Assembly (NCBI RefSeq): GCF_031191185.1
Contig: NZ_CP133465.1
Coordinates: 554,001-618,000 of the forward strand
Length of the DNA stretch: 64,000 nucleotides
Direction: 5' to 3'
From: Prevotella nigrescens
Lineage (GTDB): Bacteria; Bacteroidota; Bacteroidia; Bacteroidales; Bacteroidaceae
Within the stretch, counting starts at the first letter, position 1; each line of letters begins with the position of its first letter. Shown piece after piece: positions 6,037 through 51,358 of this stretch. Both the position numbers and the translations under genes were made by a program. Under the pieces are notes generated by a model. The model saw only the letters and a list, made by a program, of their open reading frames with translations, made no database searches and was not told where the DNA came from.

Positions 6037-6065
6037 CAACAGAAACAATCAAACCCAATTCGGAT

Positions 6066-6434: not shown

Positions 6435-6513
6435 GATGCAAATGCTGTAAAGGTGTCTTTCTGAATTACTCCAAGATGTATCTTCAACACGTTAAACTTA
6501 AGATGTAACGGAT

Positions 6514-14145: not shown

Positions 14146-14156
14146 TCAAGAAAAAT

Positions 14157-16254: not shown

Positions 16255-16258
16255 AAAT

Positions 16259-17692: not shown

Positions 17693-17703
17693 AAATAAAA
17701 AAG

Positions 17704-21538: not shown

Positions 21539-21540
21539 AT

Positions 21541-22554: not shown

Positions 22555-22555
22555 T

Positions 22556-24221: not shown

Positions 24222-24283
24222 CAATTGCTTGCAGATATTGATTGTAACACTCAATATCTACAACAAATAAACACTATTGCCTA

Positions 24284-25261: not shown

Positions 25262-25264
25262 GTT

Positions 25265-26281: not shown

Positions 26282-26325
26282 AATGGCGAGCCATTGCTAT
26301 AAAAATACTATAAAACTATAGAAAT

Positions 26326-26796: not shown

Positions 26797-27136
26797 GCGT
26801 ATTCAGTAAAATATACATCGAGATTAAGTAGGTGTAACTATATTTTCTCTTTGTGTAGTGTTACTTTTTGAGAGTTCTGTTTTGTTTTTCTGTAGTATAA
26901 CTTGCAATATACTTTCAGGAAAACGAGCTTTTCTCATCTGAAGCGCAAAAAAGTATAATAAAAGTGCTTTTTAAAGCATATCTTAACAAAGATTTTACAG
27001 CGTTCTTTGACATTATGAACAAAAATATGTACTTTTGCACTCGCTTTTGAGATACTTAATTTCTGTTAAATAACAATAGCTGTCATCGAAATTATAAACC
27101 AAAATGCTTTATACAAAGGATATGTAAGTCTTTGCT
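26797..27136 (+). other. CRISPR leader
   Basis: 340 bp of AT-rich sequence with no gene, between cas2 and the first repeat. It contains a strong promoter (27007-27037). New spacers are expected to enter at its right edge, because the degenerate repeats are all at the far right end of the array. Confidence 0.8.
27007..27037 (+). promoter_or_regulatory. Promoter of the CRISPR array inside the leader
   Basis: TTG at 27007-27009, 20 bp, TACTTTTG at 27030-27037: a perfect Bacteroidota -33/-7 pair. The predicted start of the transcript is about 90 bp before the first repeat, so the array would be read left to right. Confidence 0.8.
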
Positions 27137-30100: not shown

Positions 30101-33100
30101 CGGTAGCAAGTTTTATCATCGGACTATTCACAAACTCATTGAGTATATTCCATTACAACAAGGATTAAGACGATTGAAAGACTTTTTAATTATTAACTAA
30201 CTTTCTCTCATTGAGTATATTCCATTACAACAAGGATTAAGACTGCAATAGCCTTAATACTTTCTGGATTGTCCATGCTCATTGAGTATATTCCATTACA
30301 ACAAGGATTAAGACACTTGATTACCTTCTTTGTTGGGTTTTTCTTTTTTACTCATTGAGTATATTCCATTACAACAAGGATTAAGACTAGATACAAGGGA
30401 GCTATCACAATTCGCATTAGACTTCTCATTGAGTATATTCCATTACAACAAGGATTAAGACTTGTAACGCTCGATCTTACTTACTTCAAGCAATCTCATT
30501 GAGTATATTCCATTACAACAAGGATTAAGACAGTAACACGAGAAATCCAACAGTAAGAAGTAACGGCTCATTGAGTATATTCCATTACAACAAGGATTAA
30601 GACAACTATATCCAATGTTCTATCAAAATGAAATTTTAACTCATTGAGTATATTCCATTACAACAAGGATTAAGACTTTTACGCAATTTTGGAAAAACAC
30701 AATAGAAGCTCATTGAGTATATTCCATTACAACAAGGATTAAGACCCCATTCTTTTTAAGATAAGAAAAATCAACTATTCCTCATTGAGTATATTCCATT
30801 ACAACAAGGATTAAGACATTTTTTCCATAATCTATTATTTTGTTTATTGTTACTCATTGAGTATATTCCATTACAACAAGGATTAAGACTGAACAAGGAA
30901 GAGGAATTTATAAAATTCAAGTACCTCATTGAGTATATTCCATTACAACAAGGATTAAGACATTGGATTATTTTCCTTTCTCTCTTTTTTATTCCTCATT
31001 GAGTATATTCCATTACAACAAGGATTAAGACTGCTAGAACGTTTATAATCAGTGACGCAAACATCTCTCATTGAGTATATTCCATTACAACAAGGATTAA
31101 GACAAATCAAACTCTCCTATGATTGTTTTAAGTTTACACTCATTGAGTATATTCCATTACAACAAGGATTAAGACCAATGGAATTAAACCAAAAACGTCT
31201 AGTATCCATCTCATTGAGTATATTCCATTACAACAAGGATTAAGACTCTCAGTATACTTCTTTTTTGTAGCTTCAAGGATTTCCTCATTGAGTATATTCC
31301 ATTACAACAAGGATTAAGACTTTCAAAGTGCTAAGTGAATCTTCTACATAAGTTGCACTCATTGAGTATATTCCATTACAACAAGGATTAAGACAAGCTC
31401 AAATTTGATAGTAGTTTAAATCTTTATACTCATTGAGTATATTCCATTACAACAAGGATTAAGACTCCATAAGTTTTTCTTATCTTTAATTAATCTGTCT
31501 CATTGAGTATATTCCATTACAACAAGGATTAAGACTCAGATTAATCGTGAAGTTACAATCAGCCAGCGCTCACTCATTGAGTATATTCCATTACAACAAG
31601 GATTAAGACCCTGATTCGGAGATGGCAACCTTTGGTGCTGACTCATTGAGTATATTCCATTACAACAAGGATTAAGACAAATACCGATTCGTAAAATCTT
31701 GCTTGTGGTATTCTCATTGAGTATATTCCATTACAACAAGGATTAAGACTCATAGATAATTGACTTGTTTTGTGCTTCCCGATCTTCACTCATTGAGTAT
31801 ATTCCATTACAACAAGGATTAAGACATAATTTGGCTTTTTTCAGAATTAATCTACCAAAAATACTCATTGAGTATATTCCATTACAACAAGGATTAAGAC
31901 TTCTGGCGCTCTTCCAAATCGGCATTCTTCAAGGCTCATTGAGTATATTCCATTACAACAAGGATTAAGACCTTATGATAACTTTCTTGTTTATCTTTGC
32001 ACCACCACTCATTGAGTATATTCCATTACAACAAGGATTAAGACAATGCGTCCGTCTGGTTCAATGATTATGATTCTTCTCATTGAGTATATTCCATTAC
32101 AACAAGGATTAAGACCTCGCATAACTATCCTCATGCTTCATAAACCCAGTACTCATTGAGTATATTCCATTACAACAAGGATTAAGACCATAATAAGTAT
32201 TAAACCAAGATACTAAAATTCCTATTCTCATTGAGTATATTCCATTACAACAAGGATTAAGACTATTACCTGTATTTGTAACATTTACAGTTTTAGCCTC
32301 ATTGAGTATATTCCATTACAACAAGGATTAAGACTACTCTAATGTAGTATCACAAAGAACTCTAAGCTCCTCATTGAGTATATTCCATTACAACAAGGAT
32401 TAAGACTCATCACGACTAAGAGGATTAATAACAATAACTACTCATTGAGTATATTCCATTACAACAAGGATTAAGACAGGGCAGTTTTCTGCACAAAGAT
32501 AAAACCGTTTCTCATTGAGTATATTCCATTACAACAAGGATTAAGACGCTTGTGGTATTCTTGAACTCCTTGATTTGAGCACTCATTGAGTATATTCCAT
32601 TACAACAAGGATTAAGACAATTAAATCCTTGTTGATTAGCATATCATTGACTCTCATTGAGTATATTCCATTACAACAAGGATTAAGACGTTCTCTTGAG
32701 GAACAACGTTCACATTCTTCACCTCTCATTGAGTATATTCCATTACAACAAGGATTAAGACACCAATCCAAAAATCGGATTTAGAAATTTTACTTTTCTC
32801 ATTGAGTATATTCCATTACAACAAGGATTAAGACTAGTTAGCGATAAATCGAAAGTCGCAGTGTAGGCGTCTCATTGAGTATATTCCATTACAACAAGGA
32901 TTAAGACAAAGATTATTCTATGGAAACGAAACCGTGGGAAATAACTCATTGAGTATATTCCATTACAACAAGGATTAAGACATTACTATTTTGTGCTGGT
33001 TTACATTTTTTATCTCTCATTGAGTATATTCCATTACAACAAGGATTAAGACTTATGAGGATTATAAGTAGAGTGTTTACTCCACTCATTGAGTATATTC

Positions 33101-33319
33101 CATTACAACAAGGATTAAGACACTAAGACTAACTCTAACATAATTGTCTAAAGTTCATTGAGTATATTCCATTACAACAAGGATTAAGACTTTAAGATTT
33201 ATTACTTTCATAATTGTTATTTATTTCATTGAGTATATTCCATTACAACAAGGATTAAGACTCCTGACCACTTGCGACGTCCTCTTGAAGGATATCATTC
33301 ATTGAGTATATTCCATTAC
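27137..33319 (+). CRISPR. CRISPR array, about 86 full repeats plus a truncated one
   Basis: 37-bp repeat starting CTCATTGAG, with TATTCCATTACAACAA in the middle and ending GGATTAAGAC. I counted 86 full copies by position (first 27137-27173), and a truncated copy at 33298-33319. Spacers are about 28-38 nt. Nearly all copies are identical; the last ones (33154 and 33225) start TTCATTGAG instead of CTCATTGAG and the final one loses its 3' half, marking the leader-distal end on the right. The 3' end of the repeat (ATTAAGAC) would give an 8-nt 5' handle of the kind used by type III crRNAs if read left to right. Overlapping open frames inside the array are artefacts of the repeats. Confidence 0.98.
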
Positions 33320-34531: not shown

Positions 34532-36841
34532 ATGAAACGTTTTACCCTTTACGTCCTTACTTTATTAGGGCTTACATGCAACAATCTGTTTGCGCAAGAA
34601 TATTACAAGGGAGTTGTTCTCAATAGTAATGGAAATGGAGTAGAATTTGCAAACGTTGCTTTGCTAAGCTCTAAAGATTCTACTTTAATAATGGGTACAG
34701 TCACCAATTCAAAAGGGCAGTTCGAATTAAACTCTTCTTCAAAAGGATTGCTCAAAATCTCTTGTCTTGGCTATAAAGCTGAGTACGTAAACACAGAGAG
34801 TAACATACCTCTGACCATTACATTGCAAAACAGTTTCACCCTAATGAAAGAAGTTGTGGTCAGCTCAACAAAGCCTTTCACCCATATAGAAGGAGACGCA
34901 CTGGTTACACACATAAAAGGTACGCCGCTCGAACGTTTGGGTACGGCAAACGATGTATTGAGTAGACTTCCTGGTGTGATGAACAATCAAGGAAACATTG
35001 TTGTGTTTGGTAAAGGTGTACCGGCTATTTATATCAACGGACGATTGGTGCAACACAACAACCTGTTAGACCAACTTAAATCGGAAAAGATAAAAAAGGT
35101 AGAGGTAATAACCAACCCTGGAGCACGATACAATGCCACCGTTAAAGCAGTGATACGTATTACTACTGAAAGAGAATATGGCGAAGGACTTGCTTTTGCT
35201 AATACAACAAAGATAGGATATCTCGACTATCTTTATGGAATGGAGACTATAAATATGAATTACCGAAAAGGAAAACTCGACATTTTTACAGACCTTGAAT
35301 ATAATTATCAGAAGACAAAGCAGACTAGCCAAAGTGTTCAGAACACCTATCTAACACATCTATACACACAAAACATAAATTTAAGAGGGAAAAATAAAAA
35401 CCAATTATACGACGGAAGAATTGGTTTTAACTATACTTTCTCCCCTATACATTCGCTGGGGGTGTATTATAAAATAAGCCATAAACCCAGTAAATCGCAA
35501 CTAATATGCAACACAAACTCATGGATTGACGATATTTTTGACGATAATAGCAGCATAACGTCAGCTATAGATGGCAATTCTACTACACACAATATCGACG
35601 GATACTATACTAACAATTTTGGTAAATGGAACATCAATGCTGCATTCGATATCCTATGGAAAACAGCTAATGGATTCAGCCATTACCAAGAAGTAAACCA
35701 AAACACCTCCAACAGAAACATCACATCAAGCATTGATAGAGATGCACGCTTTTTTGCTGGTGAACTACACCTGATGAGACCTTTTTGGAAAGGTATTATA
35801 AAATTAGGTACCGAATATACAAATAGTCGAAGCAAGGAAGATTTTGTGAATACCGGAAACGTACTTACAAATAATTTCCCCTTAATAAAAGAAGGAAACA
35901 CTGCTTTGTATATAGAGTTGATGCAACGCTTTGGGCAAATAGCTTTTCAAGTTGGTTCAAGATACGAACACGTAAATAGTAACTACTATCAGAATGGACA
36001 AAAGATAGAACAGCAATCGCGCCGATACGATAGGCTATTTCCTACAGCACTTATAACCTTCCCCTTATCCAAAACGAATATTCAAATAAGCTACGCAAAG
36101 AAGTATATGCGACCTCTATACTCACAACTTGGAGGAAGCGTAACTTACATAAATCGCTATCTGTTTGAAAGTGGGAACCCTCTTCTTCGCCCAACTTATA
36201 TGGACGAATTTGCATTGAATGTAAACTATAAGTGGGCAATGATGATGCTGAACTACACCCACACAACCAATAAAATTATCACCTCTGCCATCGATTATAA
36301 AACTACAGGAGCTACATTGTTTAAGAAAGAGAACTCTAAATACGACATGAACGAACTGCAAATGCTCTTACACGTGGCTCCAGAGTTCGGAAAATATCGT
36401 CCTGCGCTGATGGTTGGAATAGTTGCACCTTTCTATAAAGAGATTTATCAAGGTAAAACAAAGCACTTTAATCATATCATAACGATTATTCGTTTCAACA
36501 ACATTCTTTTATTAAACCCTACCAGTATGTTCACAGCAGACTTTAGTTGGCGTGGTAAAGGAAATGGGGAAAACACATTTATTAATAAAACATGGCAAAT
36601 AAATCTGGGACTAATAAAGCAATGGGGAAAACATTGGAAGACTAAATTCACAGTAAACGACCTCTTTAATAGTGCTAGAAAACAATCTATAGCAATGTAT
36701 AGTGGTGTGAGAGAAAACTTTATGGAGAATCTATCCAACACACGAAGCGTTGAATGTACCGTAACTTACAGCTTTAACACAACAAGGTCTAAATACAAAG
36801 GTAAAGGCGCTGGTAGTAAAGAAAAAGAAAGATTGCAATAA
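34532..36841 (+). CDS. Outer-membrane beta-barrel protein with carboxypeptidase-regulatory-like domain (copy 1)
   Basis: 769 residues. Signal peptide MKRFTLYVLTLLGLTCNNLFAQ; a CarboxypepD_reg-like domain (residues about 22-110, 'GVVLNSNGNGVEFANVALLS'); a plug-like region ('GTANDVLSRLPGVMNNQGN', 'VEVITNPGARYNATVKAVI'); then a C-terminal barrel. This is the TonB-receptor-like 'outer membrane beta-barrel family' without a clear TonB box. It is one of four such genes here, each placed beside a C39-type peptide transporter or its remnant, which suggests a role in moving an exported peptide across the outer membrane. It starts directly after the IS30 element, so its original promoter may be lost. 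Confidence 0.8.
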   Translation: MKRFTLYVLTLLGLTCNNLFAQEYYKGVVLNSNGNGVEFANVALLSSKDSTLIMGTVTNSKGQFELNSSSKGLLKISCLGYKAEYVNTESNIPLTITLQNSFTLMKEVVVSSTKPFTHIEGDALVTHIKGTPLERLGTANDVLSRLPGVMNNQGNIVVFGKGVPAIYINGRLVQHNNLLDQLKSEKIKKVEVITNPGARYNATVKAVIRITTEREYGEGLAFANTTKIGYLDYLYGMETINMNYRKGKLDIFTDLEYNYQKTKQTSQSVQNTYLTHLYTQNINLRGKNKNQLYDGRIGFNYTFSPIHSLGVYYKISHKPSKSQLICNTNSWIDDIFDDNSSITSAIDGNSTTHNIDGYYTNNFGKWNINAAFDILWKTANGFSHYQEVNQNTSNRNITSSIDRDARFFAGELHLMRPFWKGIIKLGTEYTNSRSKEDFVNTGNVLTNNFPLIKEGNTALYIELMQRFGQIAFQVGSRYEHVNSNYYQNGQKIEQQSRRYDRLFPTALITFPLSKTNIQISYAKKYMRPLYSQLGGSVTYINRYLFESGNPLLRPTYMDEFALNVNYKWAMMMLNYTHTTNKIITSAIDYKTTGATLFKKENSKYDMNELQMLLHVAPEFGKYRPALMVGIVAPFYKEIYQGKTKHFNHIITIIRFNNILLLNPTSMFTADFSWRGKGNGENTFINKTWQINLGLIKQWGKHWKTKFTVNDLFNSARKQSIAMYSGVRENFMENLSNTRSVECTVTYSFNTTRSKYKGKGAGSKEKERLQ

Positions 36842-36855
36842 CTATATTGTGCATT

Positions 36856-37449
36856 ATGAAACATATTATGCAGCATGATGCCATGCAATGCGGAATTGCT
36901 TGCATAGCTATGGTTTGTAAGTATTATGGTAGAATGTGTTCATTCGAAACTCTATCAAATACCTGTACTATAACCAATGAGGGTGTTTCAATGCAGGCTT
37001 TAAAACAATTGGCAGAAGCCTTAGGTTTTGATGTGCTATGTGGAAAAGCAAGCTTATATCAAATAAAAGACATAAATTATCCTTGCTTACTCCATTGGAA
37101 CCAAAATCATTTTGTGGTACTGTACAAGGTCAAGAAGGGAAAGACATTCTACATTGCCGACCCCGCAAAGGGACTTGTTAAATATACTCTCGAGGAATTT
37201 AAAAAGCACTGGGTAAGCACACAATCGGGCGGTGAGGAAAAGGGTATCGCTATGTTCTTGGAACCAACACCTGCGTTTTATGGAAAGAAGATGGACGAAG
37301 AACCTAAAGAGGAACGCTCGTTTAAGTTCCTCTTTGGTTACATTAAGCAATATCGCAAGTACTTCGGTCAGATCGTATTGGGCTGCTCGTGGGAAGTCTT
37401 CTGCAACTCATTCTTTGAGGTAGGCAGAACGACTGAAAGATGGACTTAA
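36856..37449 (+). pseudogene. C39-peptidase ABC transporter, truncated by frameshift and loss of the ABC part
   Basis: Start at the ATG 36856 (the in-frame TTG at 36847 is less likely). The C39 domain is good: Cys in 'HDAMQCGIACIAMVC', His in 'LLHWNQNHFVVLYKV', Asp in 'YIADPAKG'. Residues up to 'KYFGQIVLG' match the intact transporter at 48668, and the DNA from about 37087 is nearly identical. Then one T is missing (GGGC-TGCTCG versus GGC-TTG-CTC in the intact copy), the frame changes, and the sequence diverges near 37425. About 190 of an expected ~730 residues remain, so the membrane and ATPase domains are gone. Confidence 0.85.
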
Positions 37450-40140: not shown

Positions 40141-40367
40141 ATGAATAATGAAATTTTTAAAGTTCTCCATAAAGGACAGAAATTATAGATGTAAATTCCT
40201 TGGAAATGCTAAAAGGTGGTATGGTTATGGCAGGCTGCCCTAATCTAACATCATGTGGTTGTTATAAAGCTGTAAATAGATCATGTGGTAATAGGAATGA
40301 GAGAAAACCCATTCCTGATCCCAATCCATCGAACGATTCTACTGGTACGACAATTTTAAAGCCTTAA
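40141..40367 (+). pseudogene. Double-glycine leader peptide (RiPP/bacteriocin precursor 1), leader frameshifted
   Basis: An ATG at 40141 reads MNNEIFKVLHK and then stops at 40186-40188. In the other frame the sequence continues TEIIDVNSLEMLKGG, a classic double-glycine leader ending, followed by a core of about 48 residues starting MVMAGCPNLTSCGCYKAV and 'NRSCGNRNERKPIPDPN', to the TAA at 40365-40367. The two halves join if one base is restored between about 40172 and 40188. The core has 4 Cys. Either a 1-nt deletion has killed the gene, or this is a sequencing error. Without the leader, translation could start only at 40200 (TTG) or 40206 (ATG). Confidence 0.65.
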
Positions 40368-40558: not shown

Positions 40559-42862
40559 ATGAAAAGGTACATTTTATTTTTATCTGCAGCGTTAGTATGC
40601 TCTGTATACTCAAAGGGTCAAAGTATCAGTGGCAGGGTGATGGAGAACGACAGTACTTCAATCTCTTTTGCCACGGTGTCTCTACTTCAAGCGAACGATT
40701 CTACCTATATTTTAGGAGACATGAGCAACGAAGATGGAAGTTTTTCTTTCAATGCCTCTCCTGCGAACAAGCTGGTCAGAATATCCTATATAGGATATAA
40801 GACAATAGTGCTGCCTGCAAAGGAATGTATGACAGTATTGCTGGAACCTTCCGAACAGAGCATGAAGGAAGTAGTTGTAACGGCAACTCGCCCTACTTTC
40901 AAGTTAGATAAAGGAATGTTCGTCTCCAACATTCAGGGAACAGTATACAGCAAGCTTGGCAAAGCTATAGACGTGTTGCAGCAACTGCCAATGATGGGCA
41001 GCAATGGTGTAAGTGTGCTGGGAAGAGGAACCCCACTCGTTTATATCAACAATAAGCTAATGCGTAGTTGGAACGAACTGGAACGTATCCCGAGCAACAT
41101 GATTAAGGAGATTAAGATTGACATGAATCCTGGTTCCAAATATAGTTCCAACGTGCGCGCAGTGCTTTTCATTACAACCTTAAAGCCTGTTGGCGAGGGA
41201 TTGGGAGGAACTTTAACAATGAAAGAAAGTGTATCAAGCTGCTGGGAAACAGATGGCTGGCTCGACCTTAATTACCGCACGAAAGGATTGGACGTCTTTC
41301 TGAGTTCCTCGTTTGGCACTTTTGCAAATTCGCATTACAAGCGTCAGGATACCTATGACTTTCAGCATGCGGGTAAAAACATTAATGCCAGGTATGTAGG
41401 CGATGGATACAACTCTTCGAAGAGTGGCTTTGTAAGCATTGGTTTCAACAACCAGTTCACCAACAATCAATCGCTCGGTGCCACCTATACCTTCAACAGG
41501 TTGTTTGCAAGTAATTCCAACCAGAATTTCCATAATTATATGCAAAAGGACAATGTCCTCACGGAATTTGGAACAAGCGCCCATCAGTTTTTACAAAATG
41601 GAAACCATAATGTAAGCCTCTACTATGAAAATAAATTCAGCAATAGGCTGACGCTCAATATAGATGGTACCTATGCGCACAATAACAGCAATGGGAAGCA
41701 AACAGTTGTAGACGTGCAAAACAGTCACAGCTCTACACTTGTTCCCGTTACAGAAACCAATTCGGATATGGCGGCTCTGAAAACTGTTTTTACATCGTCT
41801 GTTGGCAATGCTAAATTGGAGTATGGCTTTGAAACTACTTATACACACTTCCATCAAAAGTATAATGTGGAGAACAACAACTATACAGGTGTACTGACTG
41901 CAAACGACAATAGTTCGGAACAAAAGGCAGCCAATGTTTTCGCCAATTACAGCAGGAGCTTTGGAAAACTCTACACCCAGTTAGGGGTAAAGTATGAATA
42001 TGCCGATTATGATTACTTTGACAATGGAAAATTGCTAAGCTCAAGCAGCCGCACCTATCATCGCATTTTGCCTTCTGTCTATTTTTCTTATCCCATAAAC
42101 AGACTGTCGTTAATGCTAAGCTACAATATATATGCCCAATGTCCCTCTTACAGTCAATTGGACGAGGGAATGCAATATATCAGCGATTTTCGTTACAATA
42201 AAGGAAATTCATTGCTGCGTCCCACTTACGAACACGAAATATCATTTAATGCATCGTATGGAGATTTCCAATTCATCACCAATTATTCCTACCAGAAAGA
42301 TGCCATCATCACATGGTTCGAGGTAATGCAACAAATTCCAGCCATATTATCTTCAGACGTCAATCATTCTTATTCGTCTCTATACGCCAGCCTTTCGTAT
42401 GCTCCTACATTATTCAGAATATGGAAACCATCGTGGAACATTTGGGGCAACAGACAATGGCTTACCTACGATGGGTTACGCTATAATCGTCCACAGATTG
42501 GTTTGCAATGGAAAAACCTTTTCATACTTCCAAAGAACTGGTTTATTGTGCTAAATACAAATGGAAATCGTAGGGGAAATGTAGATACCTATATGGCACA
42601 GCCAACTATCAGAATGGATTTCGCTATACAGAAGAATATGAAAAATTGGTGGATAAAGCTAAGTGCCTTGAACATATTCAATGCTAAGGAGAAAGGATAC
42701 TCTCGGTACGCAAAGATATATACATCGCACTATGTGGATAATCGCCAACCTACCATTTGTTTGACAGTATCCTATTCATTCAATCCTGCCAAATCGAAAT
42801 ATAAAGGACAGACAGCTGGACAAAGCGAACTAAACCGCTTGTCATCAGGTCCTCGTTATTAA
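40559..42862 (+). CDS. Outer-membrane beta-barrel protein (copy 2)
   Basis: 767 residues with signal peptide (MKRYILFLSAALVCSVYSKG), a carboxypeptidase-regulatory-like domain ('GRVMENDSTSISFATVSLL'), a plug-like region ('KAIDVLQQLPMMGSNGVSVL') and a C-terminal barrel rich in Tyr/Asn strands. Same class as the genes at 34532, 42963 and 46509, but diverged (clearly not a recent duplicate). It follows the broken precursor peptide at 40141, so the pair may be a former export unit. Confidence 0.8.
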   Translation: MKRYILFLSAALVCSVYSKGQSISGRVMENDSTSISFATVSLLQANDSTYILGDMSNEDGSFSFNASPANKLVRISYIGYKTIVLPAKECMTVLLEPSEQSMKEVVVTATRPTFKLDKGMFVSNIQGTVYSKLGKAIDVLQQLPMMGSNGVSVLGRGTPLVYINNKLMRSWNELERIPSNMIKEIKIDMNPGSKYSSNVRAVLFITTLKPVGEGLGGTLTMKESVSSCWETDGWLDLNYRTKGLDVFLSSSFGTFANSHYKRQDTYDFQHAGKNINARYVGDGYNSSKSGFVSIGFNNQFTNNQSLGATYTFNRLFASNSNQNFHNYMQKDNVLTEFGTSAHQFLQNGNHNVSLYYENKFSNRLTLNIDGTYAHNNSNGKQTVVDVQNSHSSTLVPVTETNSDMAALKTVFTSSVGNAKLEYGFETTYTHFHQKYNVENNNYTGVLTANDNSSEQKAANVFANYSRSFGKLYTQLGVKYEYADYDYFDNGKLLSSSSRTYHRILPSVYFSYPINRLSLMLSYNIYAQCPSYSQLDEGMQYISDFRYNKGNSLLRPTYEHEISFNASYGDFQFITNYSYQKDAIITWFEVMQQIPAILSSDVNHSYSSLYASLSYAPTLFRIWKPSWNIWGNRQWLTYDGLRYNRPQIGLQWKNLFILPKNWFIVLNTNGNRRGNVDTYMAQPTIRMDFAIQKNMKNWWIKLSALNIFNAKEKGYSRYAKIYTSHYVDNRQPTICLTVSYSFNPAKSKYKGQTAGQSELNRLSSGPRY

Positions 42863-42966
42863 AAGTAAGAATAAGAAATGATATTCCTTATGAGGTATGT
42901 CAGTATGACGATCAAGGCATGCAAGCTTTTCTCGAAGAATTTACATTAAATAATACAAGGCTATGA
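42862..42966 (+). other. Orphan open frame ending at the next start codon
   Basis: A frame reading '...NDIPYEVCQYDDQGMQAF' and 'LEEFTLNNTRL' stops at TGA 42964-42966, overlapping the ATG of the next barrel gene (ATGA coupling). There is no start codon. It may be the C-terminal tail of a lost gene, with the coupling preserved. Confidence 0.35.
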
Positions 42967-45224
42967 ATAGAATAATCTTTCTTTTAGTACTAAGCTTTTC
43001 ATCACTTCAACTCATTGCGCAAAATATCAAAGGACAAGTGATTGATGAACAGCAACAGCCTTTACTTTGTGCAAATGTATTATTGCTCACTGTAAAAGAT
43101 TCAACATTGATAAAGGGGACTGTTACTAATGAACAAGGGCATTTTGAGCTGGCAGCCCCTGACGTTCCCTATATTATTAAAATATCCTTTATTGGTTATG
43201 AACCTTGCTATTTAAACAATAGGCAAGGAAACATTGGAGCTATACAGCTAAAGACTAATTCTACAGACCTTAATGCGGTTGTTGTAAAGGGAAGACGCCC
43301 GACTGTTAAGGTAGGCTTGAACAAAATAGAGGTAAATGTGTCAAATTCCTATTTAAAATATATGGGAAAGGCTACTACTGTTCTTGGGAAAATACCGGGG
43401 TTGACAAAAGATTTGCAATTGCTTGAAGGAGGAAGTCCAACATTTGTTCTTAATGGCAGACCCGTCGATGTCAAAGAGCTCTCAACAATACCATCTTCTG
43501 AAATTAAGAAAATTATAGTTGATTCAAATCCGAATGTAGAATATAGTGCAACATGTAAAGGTGTTGTATATATAACAACTATCAAGGCATTAGAGAATAC
43601 CTTATCTACAGAAATATCCAATGGCTCATTGTTTGCACGGCATTATATGGATGTTGCAGATTTCACATTAAATGAAAAATTTAAAAATATGAGTAATTTA
43701 CTTTCCATAGGTTTCTCATACCTGAATACAACTCAGATAGACAACACTACTGAGAGCGTGTTTTTACCAACAAGTATCATTTATAGCACCAAAGAACGCC
43801 ACACGCATGGGCAAGGGCGTGCTCTAACCTGGTTCTATGCAATGAATTGGGCACTTTCCAGCAAACAGTCGTGGGGGCTTCAGTATTCTGGCAATATAGG
43901 AAATACTCATACAACAGAACCTACATTACAAAAAATGAATGCACAATCCATGGATTACACTCAAGGTAAACGTGGAGTATCATATATCCACAACATAGGA
44001 ATAAACTATAAATATTCATTTAATAAAATGAGTTCTCTTAGGTTTATTGCAGACTACGCTCATTACAAATCAGAGAATACAGGATTTGCCAATGCGATTC
44101 CTGAGGTAAAGACAAGTAGCTCAGGAATGTACAATATAGCAGGTGCTAAACTAACATACAGCACAAAAGCAAAATGGGGAAATTTCAGTACAGGCGCATT
44201 TACGTCTACTATGAGGAATAATGGAGGGTATTCATACAACAAGGAAGAAGAAAGTTATAAGACACGGGAGACCCTGTATGGTGCTTTTACTTCATACTCC
44301 AAACGTATAAAAAAGTTTCTTGTCCAGGTGGGGTTGCGAGTAGAAGCTGACAAGCGAAGGTTAGAATCACGCGAGAAAGGTATGTTTGTAGATTCTACAG
44401 AATGGAAAGTGTTCCCCAATTTAGTCGTAAATAGAGAATTGACAAAAAAATCATCTATTGGCTTGTCAATTGGTCAAAATATAGGAAGACCTTCATATGG
44501 TAATTTAAATCCATCTATAGACTATTACGATGCCATTTCGTATAAAGTAGGCAACCCACAATTACGACCTTGCATCTCCAACAACATTAAACTAAGTTAC
44601 AATGCTGGCAACTTAATGACATCTGTAGCTTATAACTATAGTAGAAATACAATCATAGAGTTGCCTTCTTGGAAAGACAAAGGTATCGATAATAAAAATA
44701 TTGAATGGCGACCTGTGAATTTTGTCAAATCATCATCTATAGTTGCTACTGCTATTTATTCTTATGGCTTTGGACCAATACAGGGAGATATTAGCTTTTA
44801 TTACTCTAAACCTTTTATGAAAGCTACTTTTTTAGATGAGGAGCGAACATGGAACAAACCCAGCTACAATGTGAATTTGTCAGCCCAATGCCCAATAAGC
44901 AAGACTTCGATTTTAGCTTTCGACGGTTCTTTTGACAGTGCATATTCTGGAATGGTAACCAACCATCGTAGTTCCTGGACATTAAATCTTACCTATATGC
45001 AACAATTGTGGAAGGAAAGGCTGACACTGCTTGTTGTCGCAAATGATATTTTTCATACAGATAGAAGTAATACTTGGGATATGGAATATAATAATATTCG
45101 CACAACGATGGATAGTAATTTCGACACTCAATATCTGATGGTTAAACTAAATTACAACTTTGGGAAATTAAAATTGGATAAAACAAAGAAGTCGGCATCT
45201 AAAGATATTATAGACAGGTTATGA
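42963..45224 (+). CDS. Outer-membrane beta-barrel protein (copy 3)
   Basis: 753 residues; signal peptide MNRIIFLLVLSFSSLQLIAQ; regulatory-like domain ('GQVIDEQQQPLLCANVLLL'); plug-like region ('KATTVLGKIPGLTKDLQLL', 'IIVDSNPNVEYSATCKG'); barrel to the C terminus. It starts within the ATGA overlap of the orphan frame at 42862 and is followed 14 bp later by a truncated C39 transporter. The three barrels upstream of C39 genes suggest paralogous modules with different cargo. Confidence 0.8.
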   Translation: MNRIIFLLVLSFSSLQLIAQNIKGQVIDEQQQPLLCANVLLLTVKDSTLIKGTVTNEQGHFELAAPDVPYIIKISFIGYEPCYLNNRQGNIGAIQLKTNSTDLNAVVVKGRRPTVKVGLNKIEVNVSNSYLKYMGKATTVLGKIPGLTKDLQLLEGGSPTFVLNGRPVDVKELSTIPSSEIKKIIVDSNPNVEYSATCKGVVYITTIKALENTLSTEISNGSLFARHYMDVADFTLNEKFKNMSNLLSIGFSYLNTTQIDNTTESVFLPTSIIYSTKERHTHGQGRALTWFYAMNWALSSKQSWGLQYSGNIGNTHTTEPTLQKMNAQSMDYTQGKRGVSYIHNIGINYKYSFNKMSSLRFIADYAHYKSENTGFANAIPEVKTSSSGMYNIAGAKLTYSTKAKWGNFSTGAFTSTMRNNGGYSYNKEEESYKTRETLYGAFTSYSKRIKKFLVQVGLRVEADKRRLESREKGMFVDSTEWKVFPNLVVNRELTKKSSIGLSIGQNIGRPSYGNLNPSIDYYDAISYKVGNPQLRPCISNNIKLSYNAGNLMTSVAYNYSRNTIIELPSWKDKGIDNKNIEWRPVNFVKSSSIVATAIYSYGFGPIQGDISFYYSKPFMKATFLDEERTWNKPSYNVNLSAQCPISKTSILAFDGSFDSAYSGMVTNHRSSWTLNLTYMQQLWKERLTLLVVANDIFHTDRSNTWDMEYNNIRTTMDSNFDTQYLMVKLNYNFGKLKLDKTKKSASKDIIDRL

Positions 45225-45238
45225 TTATAAAATAAAAA

Positions 45239-45390
45239 ATGAGAAAAAAATTTTCTTTGATTTTACAACGTGACTCTATGCAATGCGGGGCATCATGCTT
45301 GGCAATGATTTGCTCTTACTTTGAAAAGAATGAATGTATAGAGTATCTGTCGGAACAATGCTTTGCGACCACAGAAGGAGTTTCGCTACC
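45239..45390 (+). pseudogene. C39-peptidase ABC transporter, N-terminal fragment
   Basis: The first ~50 residues are C39-like: 'LQRDSMQCGASCLAMICSY' (catalytic Cys) and 'CIEYLSEQCFATTEGVSL', the latter matching the intact gene at 48668. At about 45390 the homology ends abruptly and continues into an unrelated helix-turn-helix fragment. An open frame runs on to 45658 but in the wrong frame of that fragment, so it is meaningless downstream of the junction. His and Asp of the peptidase and all other domains are missing. Confidence 0.75.
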
Positions 45391-45549
45391 CTACTGGGCA
45401 AGGAGGTGTGTGAGCGGCTGCATATCAGCCCCCACACCTTGCAGGACTATCGGGACAAAAGGATTATTCCCTATAAGCAGTTCGCAGGGAAGATACTTTA
45501 TAAGGCTTCAGATTTGGAGAGGCTACTGGAAGAGAGTTATAGCGCATAG
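45391..45549 (+). pseudogene. Fragment of a helix-turn-helix (excisionase-like) gene
   Basis: In the second frame the sequence 'LLGKEVCERLHISPHTLQDY' and then 'RDKRIIPYKQFAGKILYKAS', 'DLERLLEESYSA' to the stop at 45547-45549. This is the C-terminal part of the small MerR/excisionase-like DNA-binding proteins common on Bacteroidota mobile elements. It lacks its own start. It marks a recombination junction with a mobile element inside the transporter gene. Confidence 0.65.
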
Positions 45550-46102
45550 ACAGGAGAAAACTCTTTTATCATATTGGAATTGCCTCCACCATATACTTTA
45601 TACAAAATACATGGTAGAGGCCTTTTATTTTCATATTTTTGCTATGTATGAAACGTAGAAAACCATGCGAAAATTTGTGAAGAAGTACCAACCGTCCAAG
45701 AAATCGTAAGAAAAATTCCGCACAGAAGAGACACAATGGTACACACGTCAAAACACACAAAAGCACAGCCATGAATACGCCCAAAGAACAATTAGTGTGC
45801 ATTTTACGGCAGTTTAATTGTTAATTTTTCGACTTTCATTGAAATTTCCGGACAAATTTCTTGCAATCTAAAGAAAAAAAGACTTTTTTTGCAAAAACAA
45901 CAATAAAATATGCTTATGAAAGTAGTACTGTTCTTACCCCATATATCACCTCCAACATATTGATTAGAGTTCGAGTATGTAACGGAGGGTAAAGCGAAGC
46001 CTAAAAATCCATGCTTCAAACCATGCTTTTTGATTCCAATAGAGATATTAACCCTACAAGTGTGAGATAATATTTAGATAGTAAAGTCGACAATATTATA
46101 TC
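45550..46102. other. Intergenic region, no gene seen
   Basis: About 550 bp after the recombination junction. A long-range inverted repeat (CCTC-C-ACCATAT at 45583 with ATGGTAGAGG near 45620) could act as a terminator. The rest has no coding character and may be mobile-element residue. Confidence 0.5.
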
Positions 46103-46145
46103 CAGACCATACTGGTAAACAGGAGCGGTAGCCGAAAAGCTAATA
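46103..46145 (+). promoter_or_regulatory. Conserved element upstream of precursor peptide 2
   Basis: CAGACCATACTGGTAAACAG followed by GAGC, then TAGCCGAAAAGCTAA. Block-by-block match to 40077-40117, with single-base changes. It starts 73 bp before the ATG at 46176. Confidence 0.6.
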
Positions 46146-46175
46146 GTAACGAGTAGGCATATTTATATAGTCCTT

Positions 46176-46376
46176 ATGAAAGATTTAATTAAAAAGAGTT
46201 TTTTAGAGGAGTCTGAAGTTCTCTTAAAATCAGAAATGGTAACATTGACAGGTGGCGATAACTTATCCGACAAAACTGCAGATCATCCTGTAGTTCCTGG
46301 AATGTGTCCAACTACATGTTCAAACGGCTGCAGTACAAGCTGTAGCTCTGGTTGTTCAAAAACAAGAACAAGTTAA
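46176..46376 (+). CDS. Double-glycine leader, CXXX-repeat peptide (RiPP precursor 2)
   Basis: 66 residues. Leader of 27 residues ending 'KSEMVTLTGG' (double-glycine cleavage site for a C39 peptidase). The 39-residue core has Cys spaced exactly every fourth residue: CPTTCSNGCSTSCSSGC, then SKTRTS. This pattern is that of the 'CXXX repeat' target peptides, known to be paired with radical-SAM maturases in Bacteroidota. A remnant of such an enzyme seems to follow (46378-46512), and an intact C39 ABC transporter lies 2.3 kb downstream. The mature product is unknown. An intact start and leader suggest it may still be made. Confidence 0.75.
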   Translation: MKDLIKKSFLEESEVLLKSEMVTLTGGDNLSDKTADHPVVPGMCPTTCSNGCSTSCSSGCSKTRTS

Positions 46377-46377
46377 T

Positions 46378-46512
46378 GAAAGTCCATGTAAGACCTGTAA
46401 AGACTATGAAGCTTGTAGAATTCCTAAACAAGTATGTTATAGAGATATTGTAAGAAAATATGGCACAAAACATTGGGATTATCCTGACGTAAATTGTCCA
46501 AAGTTCCTATGA
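46378..46512 (+). pseudogene. Possible C-terminal remnant of a radical-SAM/SPASM maturase
   Basis: An open frame with no start codon reads 'NESPCKTCKDYEACRIPKQV', then 'CYRDIVRKYGTKHWDYPDVN', 'CPKFL' and stops at TGA 46510-46512, overlapping the next ATG (ATGA). The C-x2-C-x5-C-x6-C spacing resembles the SPASM iron-sulfur region that ends peptide maturases, and 'KYGTKHWDYPD..CP' looks like a C-terminal tail. The frame can be followed upstream to a stop at 46291. A deletion that joined the precursor gene to the end of the maturase gene would explain it. No SAM-binding CxxxCxxC motif is present. Confidence 0.45.
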
Positions 46513-48668
46513 AAAAGTATTTATACATTCTTTCTTTTTGTTTTTTGCAATGTGTACTAACGGGCTTTGCACAGAACAAACCTACCTCAATGTCAGACAC
46601 AATAAATCTTTCTGAAGTAACTGTATTAGCAGAAAGACCATTTGTTCAATATAAAGCTGACAGAATGATAGTTAGTGTAGAACATAGTAAATTGTTAAAG
46701 GCACGTTCTCTTTCTAATATTTTGAATTTGATTCCGGGTGTAAATTATGATGGAGAAGGTGGTATTACCATTATGGGCAATGGTATCAAAATATATGAAA
46801 ATGGAAAATTGGTAAGGTTAAGCGGGGCGCAGCTCAAAAGATATTTATCATCCTTGCGCGGTAATGATATAAAGAATTTGGAGTTGCTGCCTCAGGCAAC
46901 AGCCGGATATGATGCAGAAGGAGGCACGGGTGTTCTTGTTATTAACCGTCAGAAGAAACATGAGTACGGACTATCAGGCTATGTGGGCAGTGAATACGAA
47001 CGGAAAAGCAAAAATTTATTTTCGGAATTTGCAGGGTTAACCTATTCGTGGGGAAACGTTGCTCTTTATGCTAATATGGCGTTAGGGCAGTCAGCAAGCC
47101 TAAGTAAGATATTCGAAAGCGACTATGGAAAAAACATTACAATCAACAGTATATCTGAAAGTACAGATAAAAGTCTTTATTATATGCCTAAGTTAGGCTT
47201 TGACTTTTATATTTCTCCGAAGCATTATTTAGGCGTAGAATGGTCGGGCAACTATTCAAAGGATTATGCCAATGCCTGTTGGGTTCATTCTACTATTACC
47301 GACAATAGTCCTTATCAAACAAGTATTAGGAGTTATGCACCATATACATTAAAGCCTAATACCAATAATGTTACATTAAATTATGAATGGAAAACAGATA
47401 CACTGGGCAGTAAACTGAACCTTCTTGCTGATTATGTAGGAGAAAGAGAACATGATTTGTACGAGTATGAGAATAAATACACCTTAGGTATAGGTGGGGA
47501 TAGTATTATATCTAAATCGCAACCCTCATTTGAACACATCAACATATATAGTACACAGGTAGATTTTACAAAGTTCTTCAACCGCCATCAGTTTACGCTT
47601 GGTGTCAAGTATGTCAATGCCGGTATCAATTATGATAATAAGCTATATCTCGGAAACACGACATTAGGAGGAGTGTTATCGGAAGATGTTGACCAACGGG
47701 ATAATTTCAGTTATGATGAGCAACGATATGCGATATATGGAATGTACAGGTACTCCTCACGACCTTGGGATTTTCAAGTGGGACTACGTGACGAATATAC
47801 AGAATGGAATACCCAACAAAGAGTTAGAACCCAATTACATAACAACCAAAAAGGCAATAATTTCTTCCCGTCTTTCTTTGTGAGAAAAAACATGGGACAA
47901 GGGAATGCCCTGTCGCTTAGTTATACGCAATCGATAAACCGTCCGTCGTATCAGATGGTAAATCCATTTGTTTTTCATCTGTCCGAAACATCTTATAAGG
48001 AAGGTAATCCTAATCTGAAAGGCGAATTGCTGTACAATGCAGGATTACAATTCGTTTTGAAGTCAAGATATGTTTTCTCGTTATCTGCATTTTTTATTGA
48101 TAGGAAAATCAATGAGGTATACGAACAGATGAACGAACAACAAACGCGCTACACATTAAGAAATGATGGCAATTTAAAGAAATTAGCTTTATACATGGAA
48201 TTTCCTTTCACGTGTGGTATATGGAATAGCAGAAGTAATGTCGAACTAAGTGAGAACTTTTATCGGAACAGTACCAAACGTGTTAATGACTTTGGGCTTG
48301 TCCTGTCAAGTTTTAACCGTTTCAGGTTGTCCAAGCAACTTACTGCAATGGCTAATTTACGCTATATCAGGCATTATAAACAACTTTATCTTATTCAGAA
48401 ATCAGATTACTTTGGAGTAGATATAGAGGGGGATTATAGTTGTTTGAAAGACAAGCTGAATATCAATTTTGGTGTAAAAGACTTGCTGAATAGCAGAGGA
48501 AAGAATCAACAAATATTCAAGAACGGTGACTTTGAGCACCGTACGGACTTTAATTTCATTTCCCGAAAATTCTTTGTCAGCGTAACATTTAGTTTTTCTG
48601 CCGGGTCAAAACATGCAATCCAGCATGATAAGACACACTCTAATGAAGAAGAAAAAGAAAGAATGTGA
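46509..48668 (+). CDS. Outer-membrane beta-barrel protein (copy 4)
   Basis: 719 residues from the ATG at 46509 (an in-frame TTG at 46494 is less likely; the ATG overlaps the previous stop). Signal peptide 'MKKYLYILSFCFLQCVLTGF', then 'AQNKP'. Unlike the other three copies it lacks the carboxypeptidase-regulatory domain and starts almost directly with the plug-like part ('LSEVTVLAERPFVQYKADRM', 'SLSNILNLIPGVNYDGEGG'). It is followed immediately by the intact C39 transporter (TGATG overlap), so they form an operon. Confidence 0.8.
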   Translation: MKKYLYILSFCFLQCVLTGFAQNKPTSMSDTINLSEVTVLAERPFVQYKADRMIVSVEHSKLLKARSLSNILNLIPGVNYDGEGGITIMGNGIKIYENGKLVRLSGAQLKRYLSSLRGNDIKNLELLPQATAGYDAEGGTGVLVINRQKKHEYGLSGYVGSEYERKSKNLFSEFAGLTYSWGNVALYANMALGQSASLSKIFESDYGKNITINSISESTDKSLYYMPKLGFDFYISPKHYLGVEWSGNYSKDYANACWVHSTITDNSPYQTSIRSYAPYTLKPNTNNVTLNYEWKTDTLGSKLNLLADYVGEREHDLYEYENKYTLGIGGDSIISKSQPSFEHINIYSTQVDFTKFFNRHQFTLGVKYVNAGINYDNKLYLGNTTLGGVLSEDVDQRDNFSYDEQRYAIYGMYRYSSRPWDFQVGLRDEYTEWNTQQRVRTQLHNNQKGNNFFPSFFVRKNMGQGNALSLSYTQSINRPSYQMVNPFVFHLSETSYKEGNPNLKGELLYNAGLQFVLKSRYVFSLSAFFIDRKINEVYEQMNEQQTRYTLRNDGNLKKLALYMEFPFTCGIWNSRSNVELSENFYRNSTKRVNDFGLVLSSFNRFRLSKQLTAMANLRYIRHYKQLYLIQKSDYFGVDIEGDYSCLKDKLNINFGVKDLLNSRGKNQQIFKNGDFEHRTDFNFISRKFFVSVTFSFSAGSKHAIQHDKTHSNEEEKERM

Positions 48669-50863
48669 TGAGTAGTTTTCCTTTGATTAGGCAACATGAT
48701 TCGATGGAGTGTGGTATCGCATGCCTTGCGATGGTATGTAAATTTTTTAGAATCGAATATTCAATAGAATATCTTTCTAGAATTTGCTTTGCAACCACAG
48801 AAGGAGTCTCATTACTTGGTATTAATGAAACAGCTTTACAACTTGGATTACGAACTATCAGCGGAAGAATCAGTATTAATAAACTTTGGGAGGCTCATTA
48901 CCCTTGTATTCTTCATTGGAATCAAAACCACTTTGTAGTACTGTACAAGGTTAAGAAGGGAAAGACCTTCTACATCGCCGATCCGGGAAAAGGACTTGTA
49001 AAATACAATCTCGAGGAATTTAAAAAGCACTGGGTAAGCACTCAGTTGGACGGTGAGGAAAAGGGTATCGCTATGTTCTTAGAACCTACTCCTGCGTTTT
49101 ATGAAAAGAAGACAGATGAACAGCCAACAGAGGAACGCTCGTTTAAGTTCCTCTTTGGTTACATTAAGCAATATCGTAAGTATTTCGGTCAAATTGTTTT
49201 AGGCTTGCTCGTTGGCAGCCTGCTGCAGCTTATTCTGCCTTTCCTCACACAATCTATCGTGGATGTGGGCATTAAAAACCAAAATATTGGCTTTATATGG
49301 CTGATACTCCTTGGACAACTGATGCTTACCATTAGCCGAACTGCCATCGATTTTATCCGCCGCTGGCTCTTGCTCCACATCTCGTTGCGCATAAACATTT
49401 CGTTGGTAAGCGATTTCTTCATCAAGCTTTTAAAGTTGCCCATGTCGTTCTTCGACACAAAACTAATGGGCGACCTCATGCAGCGTATGGGCGACCACAA
49501 CCGTGTAAACTCGTTTCTGACACAGCAAACGCTCAGCATCGTGTTCTCGCTCTTTACCTTTGTGGTGTTCAGCATTGTATTGTTATCCTATAACTGGCTT
49601 GTCTTCGCCATTTTCATGCTCGGCAGTCTGCTCTATGGCGGTTGGCTTGCACTATTTCTAAGGCGCAGAAAGGTTCTCGACTACGAACTTTTCGAGCAGC
49701 AAGCCATCAATAACAATAAAACCTACGAATTTATTACCTCCATGCAGGAGATAAAACTGCAAGACTGTGAACAGCGCAGACGCTGGGAATGGGAGGACGT
49801 GCAGGCTGATTTATTCAACGTACAGATGAAATCGCTAAAGCTCCAACAAACGCAGGAGGCTGGCAGCATATTCATCAACGAACTGAAGAATATTGTCATC
49901 ACCGTGGTGGCAGCAACTGCTGTTATTCACGGACAACTAACACTGGGTATGATGCTTGCCGTGCAGTACATTATCGGACAACTCAACTCACCAGTGGAAC
50001 AGCTAATGAGTTTCTTCTATTCTGTGCAGGACGTGAGGATTAGTCTTGAACGTATAAACGAAATACATCGCATGGACGATGAGAACGGAAAACAAGGATT
50101 GGAAACTTCAGTGAAAGAAGAAGATAGTGGTATAGACATGGAAAACATAAACTTTAAATACGACCCACATGCACTGAAAACTATCATAGATAATGTAAGC
50201 CTCACTATTCCCAAAGGCAAGGTAACAGCCATTGTCGGAGCGTCGGGTAGCGGAAAAACCACGCTCATCAAACTCATGCTGGGTTACTATCCCGTGCTGG
50301 GTGGACAAATCAATATTGGTGGAACAGATGTAAACACACTCAATAAAAAGTGGTGGCGCAGACAATGTGGCGTGGTGATGCAGGACGGTGTGATATTCTC
50401 CGAGAGCATTGCAAGGAACATTGCCGTAGATGATGGCGAGATAGATAAGGAACGACTAAGGAAAGCAGCCGAAATAGCCTGTATTCACGATTATGTGATG
50501 GGGCTGCCCTTAAAATACAACACAAAGATAGGGCGCGATGGTGTAGGATTAAGTCAGGGACAAAAACAGCGCATACTGATAGCAAGAGCCGTATATAAGA
50601 ATCCCGACTACATTTTCCTTGACGAAGCTACCAACTCGCTCGATGCCAACAACGAACGCATGATTGTGGAACATCTGGACGAGTTCTATAAAGGCAAGAC
50701 GGTAGTTATAGTGGCTCACCGACTAAGTACGGTGAAGAATGCCGACCAGATAGTGGTACTGGATAAAGGCAAAGTGGTGGAAATCGGCAATCACGAAACA
50801 CTCACGGCAAAGCGTGGCGCATACTATAACCTCGTGAAAAATCAGTTAGAATTGGGCAACTAA
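48668..50863 (+). CDS. Peptidase-containing (C39) ABC transporter, intact
   Basis: 731 residues; the ATG at 48668 overlaps the upstream stop (TGATG), preferred over the GTG at 48665. C39 domain (about 1-140): catalytic Cys15 in 'HDSMECGIACLAMV', His in 'LHWNQNHFVVLYKV', Asp in 'YIADPGKGLV'. Six membrane segments lie between about 165 and 450. ABC domain (about 490-725): Walker A 'GASGSGKTT' from residue 524, signature 'LSQGQKQR', Walker B 'YIFLDEATNSLD' and the His-loop 'VIVAHRLSTV'. It would cleave double-glycine leaders and export the core peptide. The obvious substrate is the CXXX peptide at 46176. Confidence 0.95.
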   Translation: MSSFPLIRQHDSMECGIACLAMVCKFFRIEYSIEYLSRICFATTEGVSLLGINETALQLGLRTISGRISINKLWEAHYPCILHWNQNHFVVLYKVKKGKTFYIADPGKGLVKYNLEEFKKHWVSTQLDGEEKGIAMFLEPTPAFYEKKTDEQPTEERSFKFLFGYIKQYRKYFGQIVLGLLVGSLLQLILPFLTQSIVDVGIKNQNIGFIWLILLGQLMLTISRTAIDFIRRWLLLHISLRINISLVSDFFIKLLKLPMSFFDTKLMGDLMQRMGDHNRVNSFLTQQTLSIVFSLFTFVVFSIVLLSYNWLVFAIFMLGSLLYGGWLALFLRRRKVLDYELFEQQAINNNKTYEFITSMQEIKLQDCEQRRRWEWEDVQADLFNVQMKSLKLQQTQEAGSIFINELKNIVITVVAATAVIHGQLTLGMMLAVQYIIGQLNSPVEQLMSFFYSVQDVRISLERINEIHRMDDENGKQGLETSVKEEDSGIDMENINFKYDPHALKTIIDNVSLTIPKGKVTAIVGASGSGKTTLIKLMLGYYPVLGGQINIGGTDVNTLNKKWWRRQCGVVMQDGVIFSESIARNIAVDDGEIDKERLRKAAEIACIHDYVMGLPLKYNTKIGRDGVGLSQGQKQRILIARAVYKNPDYIFLDEATNSLDANNERMIVEHLDEFYKGKTVVIVAHRLSTVKNADQIVVLDKGKVVEIGNHETLTAKRGAYYNLVKNQLELGN

Positions 50864-50878
50864 TAATAGAGAGACACT

Positions 50879-51358
50879 ATGGCAGACAGCAAGATTGAAC
50901 TCCGCAGCGAGAAGGTAAGACATATCATTGGCGAAATACCATCAGGAATAGTGCGCTATGGCATCACCATAATCACCATTGTAATATTGGGACTGCTGGT
51001 GGGGGCATACTTTATACCTTATCCCGAAACCATCAGTACAAGAATTGAGATAGCTGACAGGCGACAAGGAACAGTAGCCATTCCCTATCAATATGTGAAT
51101 ACTGTAAAAAAAGGAATGAACGTCAGCATTGAGTTGGAAGGATACGATACAGAAATGTATGGCGTAACAAACGGAACCATTACAGCAATATCTTCTACTC
51201 CACAACACACAGCAAATGGAAATATATTCGTTGCAAAAGTAAATGTAAAAAACTGCAAGTATAACATTGAGGGCGGAATGGCGGGCACAGCTTCCATACT
51301 TGTAAGCAACGAAAGCATGCTTCAAAGGATACTTCAGCGAGTAACAAGCTGTATATAA
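50879..51358 (+). CDS. Short HlyD-like periplasmic adaptor
   Basis: 159 residues, against about 400-430 for the usual adaptor of C39 exporters. The N-terminal part is right: a cytoplasmic start 'IRSEK'-like region, then a membrane helix 'YGITIITIVILGLLVGAYFI' and 'YPETISTRIEIADRRQGTVA'. The rest resembles the C-terminal beta-barrel region ('GMNVSIELEGYDTEMYGVTN', 'FVAKVNVKNCKY') ending normally. The lipoyl domain and helical hairpin are absent. It could be an internally deleted gene that still keeps its frame, or a natural short form. It is 15 bp after the transporter gene, clearly co-transcribed. Confidence 0.7.
   Translation: MADSKIELRSEKVRHIIGEIPSGIVRYGITIITIVILGLLVGAYFIPYPETISTRIEIADRRQGTVAIPYQYVNTVKKGMNVSIELEGYDTEMYGVTNGTITAISSTPQHTANGNIFVAKVNVKNCKYNIEGGMAGTASILVSNESMLQRILQRVTSCI

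Follow-up and report, generated by a model that had tools for sequence, protein, structure and literature searches.

The DNA considered here, a stretch of 64,000 nucleotides of Prevotella nigrescens (the window), appears to carry the remnant of a Bacteroidales RiPP cluster: a CXXX-peptide cluster whose maturase has been lost by deletion, and in which the peptide, if made, would be uncrosslinked and is probably a relic. A probability of about 0.78 is assigned to this reading. It starts from the peptide gene, a 3' stub of a radical-SAM/SPASM maturase beside it, the absence of SPASM matches in the genome and the homologous clusters in which the maturase is present, all of which are observed directly.

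Precursor gene and surrounding features

The features referred to below are as follows (window coordinates, strand, description, basis).

34532–36841, +, barrel gene of the first upstream module (domain match)
36847–37449, +, C39 domain without transporter, 200 aa, first upstream barrel and C39 module (domain match)
40559–42862, +, barrel gene of the second upstream module (domain match)
42963–45224, +, barrel gene of the second upstream module (domain match)
45239–45390, +, second C39 gene, first ~50 codons only, followed by a fragment of a helix-turn-helix (HTH) gene to 45549 (domain match, comparison with locus L066)
46176–46376, +, precursor peptide gene, 66 aa, GG leader and CXXX core (ORF translation; TIGR04149 score below cut-off)
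46176–46256, +, leader of 27 residues ending LTGG (direct reading)
46305–46355, +, CXXX run of five Cys four apart, the last two within the possible deletion-junction stretch
46354–46512, +, 3' stub of the radical-SAM/SPASM maturase, C-terminal Cys motifs only, in a frame different from the peptide's (profile and alignment; true left end ~46336 to 46378)
46509–48668, +, outer-membrane beta-barrel protein OMP_b-brl_3 (Pfam, E 8.5e-72; ATG overlaps the stub stop)
48668–50863, +, C39 peptidase-ABC transporter, intact (domain matches)
50879–51358, +, short HlyD-like adaptor, 159 aa (TIGR01843 30 bits, below the cut-off of 208.65)

The translation of 46176–46376 has a core of 39 residues with CPTTCSNGCSTSCSSGC after LTGG, in which five Cys stand exactly four apart, just as the preliminary description of this DNA had read it; the barrel and intact C39 transporter that it placed downstream are likewise found, as an OMP_b-brl_3 barrel and an intact C39-ABC gene. 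Across the six frames of the 64 kb window there is a single instance of (CX3)4C without further Cys, and 50 mononucleotide shuffles gave none. Against TIGR04149 (GG_sam_targ_CFB, a model of GG-leader radical-SAM substrates) the peptide scores 19 bits (E 0.001; 17.6 bits in the whole-genome scan), below the cut-off of 25, and it also falls below the cut-offs of TIGR04117 (14.4 of 50 bits) and TIGR04118 (13.3 of 35 bits). It does have the mark of C39/PCAT substrates: its leader ends in GG (GA or GS would also qualify), and a C39-ABC gene stands nearby. No close homologue was found with the peptide as query in 299 genomes of the genus; besides the peptide itself there were two weak matches, both rejected, one of them (L014) overlapping another gene and the other (L015) being unconvincing. 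Matches to the Bacteroidetes-type promoter consensus number 12 in the window, where 5.1 are expected and 3 of 100 shuffles give 12 or more, and none lies between 45239 and 46176. The window peptide is genuine.

The maturase stub and the proposed deletion junction

Directly 3' of the peptide gene, and overlapping its end, the DNA codes for the C-terminal end of a maturase, ~50 codons in length; the enzyme's radical-SAM half, which would have the CX3CX2C motif, is absent. The preliminary description was right that no complete maturase is in view but missed this stub. The stub scores 56.7 bits from 46336 against a profile built from ten full-length maturases (E 5e-19, the search covering six short frames) and still 47.3 bits when cut back to 46378, and it aligns to the C-termini of the full-length enzymes. 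Its stop overlaps the ATG of the barrel gene (ATGA), the stub ending at 46512 and the barrel starting at 46509.

The profile gain from starting at 46336, that is from the first five residues, is 5.1 bits, and it is equalled by 59 of 2000 codon shuffles. From the sequence, the junction would lie between about 46336 and 46378, an interval rather than a fixed point. The terminal SKTRTS of the peptide, possibly together with the final one or two Cys, may derive from maturase DNA translated out of frame. The profile match starts inside the CXXX region. The five-Cys core is not to be taken as ancestral.

With the stub as query, the 299 genus genomes gave 29 rows including the stub itself, and 25 genomes, the stub's own included, were matched at E 0.1 or better. 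The four strongest non-self matches (E 1e-8 or better) belong to the same maturase family, three of them in frames of 509 to 527 aa and the fourth being a shortened maturase of P. bivia; the family assignment covers these four, the remaining 24 rows being weak (E 0.005 to 0.1). The stub is thus homologous to the C-terminus of a maturase family without a name (alignment A2), of which the P. nigrescens genome has no complete enzyme with CX3CX2C.

The full-length maturase family

Full-length relatives of the stub, of ~490 aa, occur in other Bacteroidales, and in both members tested (L046, L060) the Pfam Radical_SAM and SPASM domains are over cut-off. A related-locus search of species genomes, which may leave out the window's own genome, returned 14 loci, including those of Prevotella koreensis and Palleniella muris and of MAGs of Parabacteroides, Bacteroides and Phocaeicola. 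At E 1e-40 the maturase profile matches 12 of 393 genomes sampled from the window's order, and 12 of its 15 matches span at least 470 of the 489 positions; at E 1e-25 it matches 14 of 398 genomes of the genus, where six matches cover 470 or more positions.

The order precursor, maturase, barrel, C39-ABC is found in P. koreensis (L046), L051 and L053, and also in L058, where the barrel was recognized by eye. By BLASTP, with the window barrel and transporter as queries, a barrel match is present in 9 of 23 maturase loci and a C39 match in 8 (six downstream, one of these cut, and two upstream), many of the loci breaking off shortly past the maturase. In L047 two further genes, peptidase-like and glycosyltransferase-like by eye, separate maturase and C39, and there is no barrel match; L059 and L060 have the maturase and no C39 match within their 21-kb loci. 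In L046 (240–4454) the P. koreensis cluster adjoins genes that by eye are integrase-like, excisionase-like HTH and mobilisation-like; such clusters may travel on mobile elements. The HTH fragment that ends at 45549 in the window is from a gene of similar kind.

Among the best 25 NCBIfam families for each of three members, only the generic SPASM model TIGR04085 is over cut-off, in two members. The P. koreensis maturase scores 11.4 of the 350 bits of TIGR04115, and no match to this model is listed at the maturases G488:C125 and G445:C112:4938. TIGR04115 is over cut-off in none of four genomes searched, and TIGR04148 in none of six (five with the maturase family), the maturase places not being among its matches. 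Assignment of the family to TIGR04115 or TIGR04148 is rejected on scores below cut-off or lack of a match.

An AlphaFold model of the P. koreensis maturase (ten sequences; pLDDT 85.1, pTM 0.87) is closest to SuiB, the streptide maturase (E 1.6e-18, TM 0.61 on the query, 482 columns), and to the sactipeptide entry 5why (CteB), SkfB and PqqE. The likeness of fold extends over nearly the whole length, the identities being 14 to 17%. The predicted fold supports a peptide maturase; the type of bond is not told by it.

CXXX cores beside the maturase family

The preliminary description had linked a GG-leader CXXX precursor beside a C39 exporter to radical-SAM enzymes, and this link holds, since some relatives with the same type of core adjoin a radical-SAM/SPASM maturase. 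A CXXX-run core, that is at least three Cys spaced by four, is present in 4 of the 24 loci with a candidate precursor (L060, L085, L086 and L087), and the other 20 have cores without such a run. A CXXX core next to this maturase family recurs, as a minority arrangement.

Candidate precursors were picked by eye from ORF lists by GG and Cys content (that of L095 has one Cys). The count leaves out loci that lack the 5' end (L054 and L078) or a visible precursor (L076), those superseded by longer versions (L074, L077 and L084, in favour of L085, L086 and L087) and duplicates of the same place (L049, L052, L055 and L056 of L046, L045, L048 and L047; L091–L093 of L046, L048 and L047). Also excluded were L045, in which the maturase is shortened, L061 and L062, which have the tail alone, L096, whose precursor is that of L095, the partial or distant L080 and L081, and the distant L098 to L102. 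L097, with a maturase shortened to ~300 aa, and L086, with a stop inside the maturase, were retained.

L085 has three CXXX ORFs 3' of the maturase, with the runs CLLGCKPGCKPGCEPGC, CKNGCKPGCDAGC and CKDGCIGGC, followed by an FGE-type protein, a barrel (Pfam), then a C39-ABC gene (by eye) and a short adaptor without Pfam match. L086 has three CXXX precursors together with a barrel and a C39-ABC gene recognized by eye. In L087 the CXXX precursor is without GG, and neither barrel nor C39 is present in the inspected part of the locus. Between CXXX precursors and barrel, L085 (2415–3155, Pfam) and L086 (7504–8241, by eye) both have a protein of the FGE/sulfatase-modifying-factor type, possibly a second modification enzyme.

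Search for another maturase in the genome

The P. nigrescens genome searched is 99.95% complete, in six contigs. No SPASM domain was found in it at E 0.1, the positive controls being over cut-off in 8 of 14 genomes. Neither TIGR04148 (GG_samocin_CFB maturase, cut-off 300 bits) nor TIGR04115 (CXXX maturase, cut-off 350 bits) has a match in it; these two models are over cut-off in none of the 14 control genomes, and positive controls thus belong to the SPASM search only. The family of alignment A2 has no match in this genome at 1e-40 or 1e-25. The SPASM model covers little of the stub, and for this reason the SPASM search could not have found it.

Eleven radical-SAM domains of the genome are over cut-off, and three more are below it. 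Eight of the eleven are named over curated cut-offs and have housekeeping roles (MiaB, HemW, PflA, RimO, MtaB, LplA-LipA, RlmN and MnmL/YtqA). The other three of the eleven are L011, which has a Radical_SAM_N domain and is presumably YgiQ; L010, which is short and most like glycyl-radical activases, below cut-off; and L009, of 341 aa, which is without an assigned family. L010 and L009 are both without a SPASM domain. With no SPASM domain in so complete a genome, a maturase elsewhere in it is very unlikely, and the earlier suggestion of a modifying enzyme encoded elsewhere is accordingly not supported.

The barrel, the transporter and repeated loss of the maturase

The barrel has a dN/dS of 0.18 (0.017/0.093) against L066, 0.12 (0.084/0.71) against L062 and 0.12 (0.068/0.59) against L067, and for the C39-ABC gene the pair against L066 is 0.022/0.326. 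On these ratios the barrel has been under purifying selection, some share of which is possibly older than the decay.

The barrel is kept in several loci in which the maturase is shortened or gone. L066 has the same barrel (97% DNA identity over the match) behind a stub shorter than the window's; it shares window 45398–45918 at 84% and is without window 45919–46431, the peptide included. In Hallella colorans (L062) the barrel stands behind a stub that starts at window 46414 and is preceded by an apparent transposase fragment, and the C39 gene is cut to 67 aa. In L067 no stub and no C39 gene accompany the barrel, and in L061, a Prevotellaceae MAG, the last ~108 residues of the maturase are fused to another ORF before a barrel-like gene.

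In the cluster of P. bivia (L045) about 147 aa of the maturase remain, adjoining an incomplete duplicate of the neighbouring ketoacyl-synthase-like gene, and a different peptide and radical-SAM gene lie beside the cluster. The ketoacyl-synthase-III-like gene (Pfam on the L046 copy) occurs twice in L045, at 5658–6797 and 10692–10928; the cut copy precedes the shortened maturase and the whole copy is near the other peptide and radical-SAM pair, which looks like cassette replacement by recombination. Further shortened maturases are seen in L097 (1486–2400, ~300 aa, with a GG peptide before it) and in L080 (a 178-aa frame). Loss of this maturase may be common.

Upstream modules

Cut-off C39 genes lie upstream of a complete C39-ABC cluster in the window (36847 and 45239), L066 (2559–9091), L086 (4402), L089 (2724) and L090 (2698), as if they were older modules pushed aside. 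The 45239 copy in the window is followed by DNA shared with L066 from about 45398; the excisionase-like HTH fragment there corresponds to a whole gene in L066, which matches HTH_17.

Over six initial 40-column blocks, some 80 codons, the four longer upstream copies (window 36847; L066 2559, 5727 and 8606) are 35 to 75% identical to the intact C39 gene of the window; from there to the point where they are cut the identity is 62 to 92%. The 45239 copy is cut before the jump. After the jump, by eye, variants are shared among the L066 copies and among the window copies, suggesting that recombination took place within each genome. The upstream copy of L086 behaves like those of the window and L066 (85 to 92% in five blocks), and those of L089 and L090 have no shared high-identity stretch. 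An exchange of the last module between window and L066 in a single clean step is not borne out, the identity being a mosaic of 71 to 100% per 100 bases.

The identity pattern of the C39 copies, which is suggestive only, is the basis for a tentative and rather doubtful view: Bacteroidales might exchange whole modules, each made up of precursor, maturase, barrel and the C39 half that reads the leader, ahead of a single resident C39-ABC gene, with displaced modules staying upstream as a barrel and a truncated C39. The window would then hold a last module without its maturase, in which the barrel, perhaps an immunity protein or uptake receptor for the modified peptide, is selected alone.

Two other features of this region may be recorded. 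A Cys-rich ORF at 40200–40367 follows a GG (EMLKGG, then GCPNLTSCGC), and its first in-frame start leaves a very short leader; the ATG at 40141 is in another frame, which stops at 40188. The ORF resembles another precursor, one whose leader has been disrupted. Farther upstream, in a CRISPR array (27135–33261), a 37-base unit (CTCATTGAGTATATTCCATTACAACAAGGATTAAGAC) recurs about 86 times at intervals of ~70 bases, and the genes before it (13474–26796) resemble, by eye only, a type III CRISPR-Cas set.

Relation to known systems

The cluster type is a variant of the GG-leader radical-SAM RiPPs, and the copy here is decayed. With the CXXX-repeat radical-SAM systems (TIGR04115; TIGR04117, TIGR04118) it shares a Cys at every fourth core residue and a radical-SAM/SPASM enzyme; it differs in the GG leader and C39 export of the window cluster, in a peptide far below the TIGR04117 and TIGR04118 cut-offs and in maturases that fall short of TIGR04115. 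The GG-Bacteroidales system (TIGR04148/TIGR04149) is alike in its GG leader and radical-SAM maturase and in the partial peptide score. In contrast, its maturase model has no match at the maturase places, and no pseudo-radical-SAM gene was seen by eye beside the maturase in the ORF lists.

A search of one open-licence library on CXXX repeats gave no paper on RiPPs by title. Bacteroidales RiPP clusters mined with BAGEL4 have rSAM, PCAT and OMP genes and precursors with a GG motif (PMC10352776). They are likened here by text, the precursor sequences being in a figure, and the main text of that paper has the words 'cxxx', 'pseudogene' and 'truncated' 0 times. The bacteroidetocins, likened by description only, are Bacteroidales peptides exported unmodified, as the window peptide would now be.

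Proposed history and its alternatives

In the ancestral cluster the GG-leader precursor with its CXXX core would have been bound and modified by the ~490-residue radical-SAM/SPASM maturase encoded just downstream, most likely by Cys thioether crosslinks. Cleavage after GG would have been followed by export through the C39-ABC transporter with the short HlyD-like adaptor, the outer-membrane barrel serving as receptor or as channel of exit. A deletion with one end inside the precursor gene, or shortly beyond it, would then have left only the last ~50 maturase codons. Since no other such enzyme was found in the genome, the peptide, if made today, would have free or disulfide-bonded cysteines. The precursor gene is now probably a relic, and barrel and transporter may serve another use.

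Alternatively, the peptide may work without the maturase, as a linear or disulfide-bonded Cys-rich peptide exported by C39 in the manner of unmodified GG-leader bacteriocins. This is consistent with the intact ORF, LTGG leader and C39-ABC gene, with dN well below dS for both barrel and C39-ABC against L066, and with the bacteroidetocins, which the main text of PMC10352776 describes as unmodified antimicrobial peptides of Bacteroidales. However, L066 keeps barrel and transporter without the peptide gene, so that the conservation of these two is of little weight for the peptide. The 299 genus genomes yielded no further copy with which selection on the peptide could be tested, and its C-terminus may be a fusion product. 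The intact ORF, leader and exporter would be explained by either a young deletion or continuing function. The stub shows that the present state arose by loss of a maturase, and decay is therefore simpler than unmodified export; the export of an unmodified peptide, proposed in the preliminary description, is accordingly retained as an unlikely alternative rather than as the first reading.

An assembly artefact, with a full maturase in the living strain, is very improbable: the junction is known from one genome of the species, but it lies inside a 2.1 Mb contig, and L066 and L062 are also without most of the maturase, with other end points. Modification in trans, by a different maturase that the cell encodes, is a general possibility for which the unassigned L009 might be named, but it is scarcely credible with that protein lacking a SPASM domain and the genome lacking any SPASM, TIGR04148 or TIGR04115 match. 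Equally hard to credit is the view that the ORF is a chance reading of fused DNA and never was a precursor gene. Its 3' end does partly overlap the stub (with the 5.1 bits, matched by some codon shuffles, gained by extending the overlap to 46336), but the leader with LTGG and the CXXX runs beside the maturase family in other loci speak against it.

Implications

On the preferred reading, that of a decayed cluster, a maturase was once present at this locus and has since been lost, and nothing found in the genome can replace it. Repeated loss of the maturase with the barrel kept allows the role of the barrel, as exporter, receptor or immunity protein, to be asked. The radical-SAM/SPASM family to which the stub belongs is without a specific NCBIfam model over cut-off among the best 25 families of three members, and its clusters, some with CXXX precursors, are open to tests for new crosslinks.
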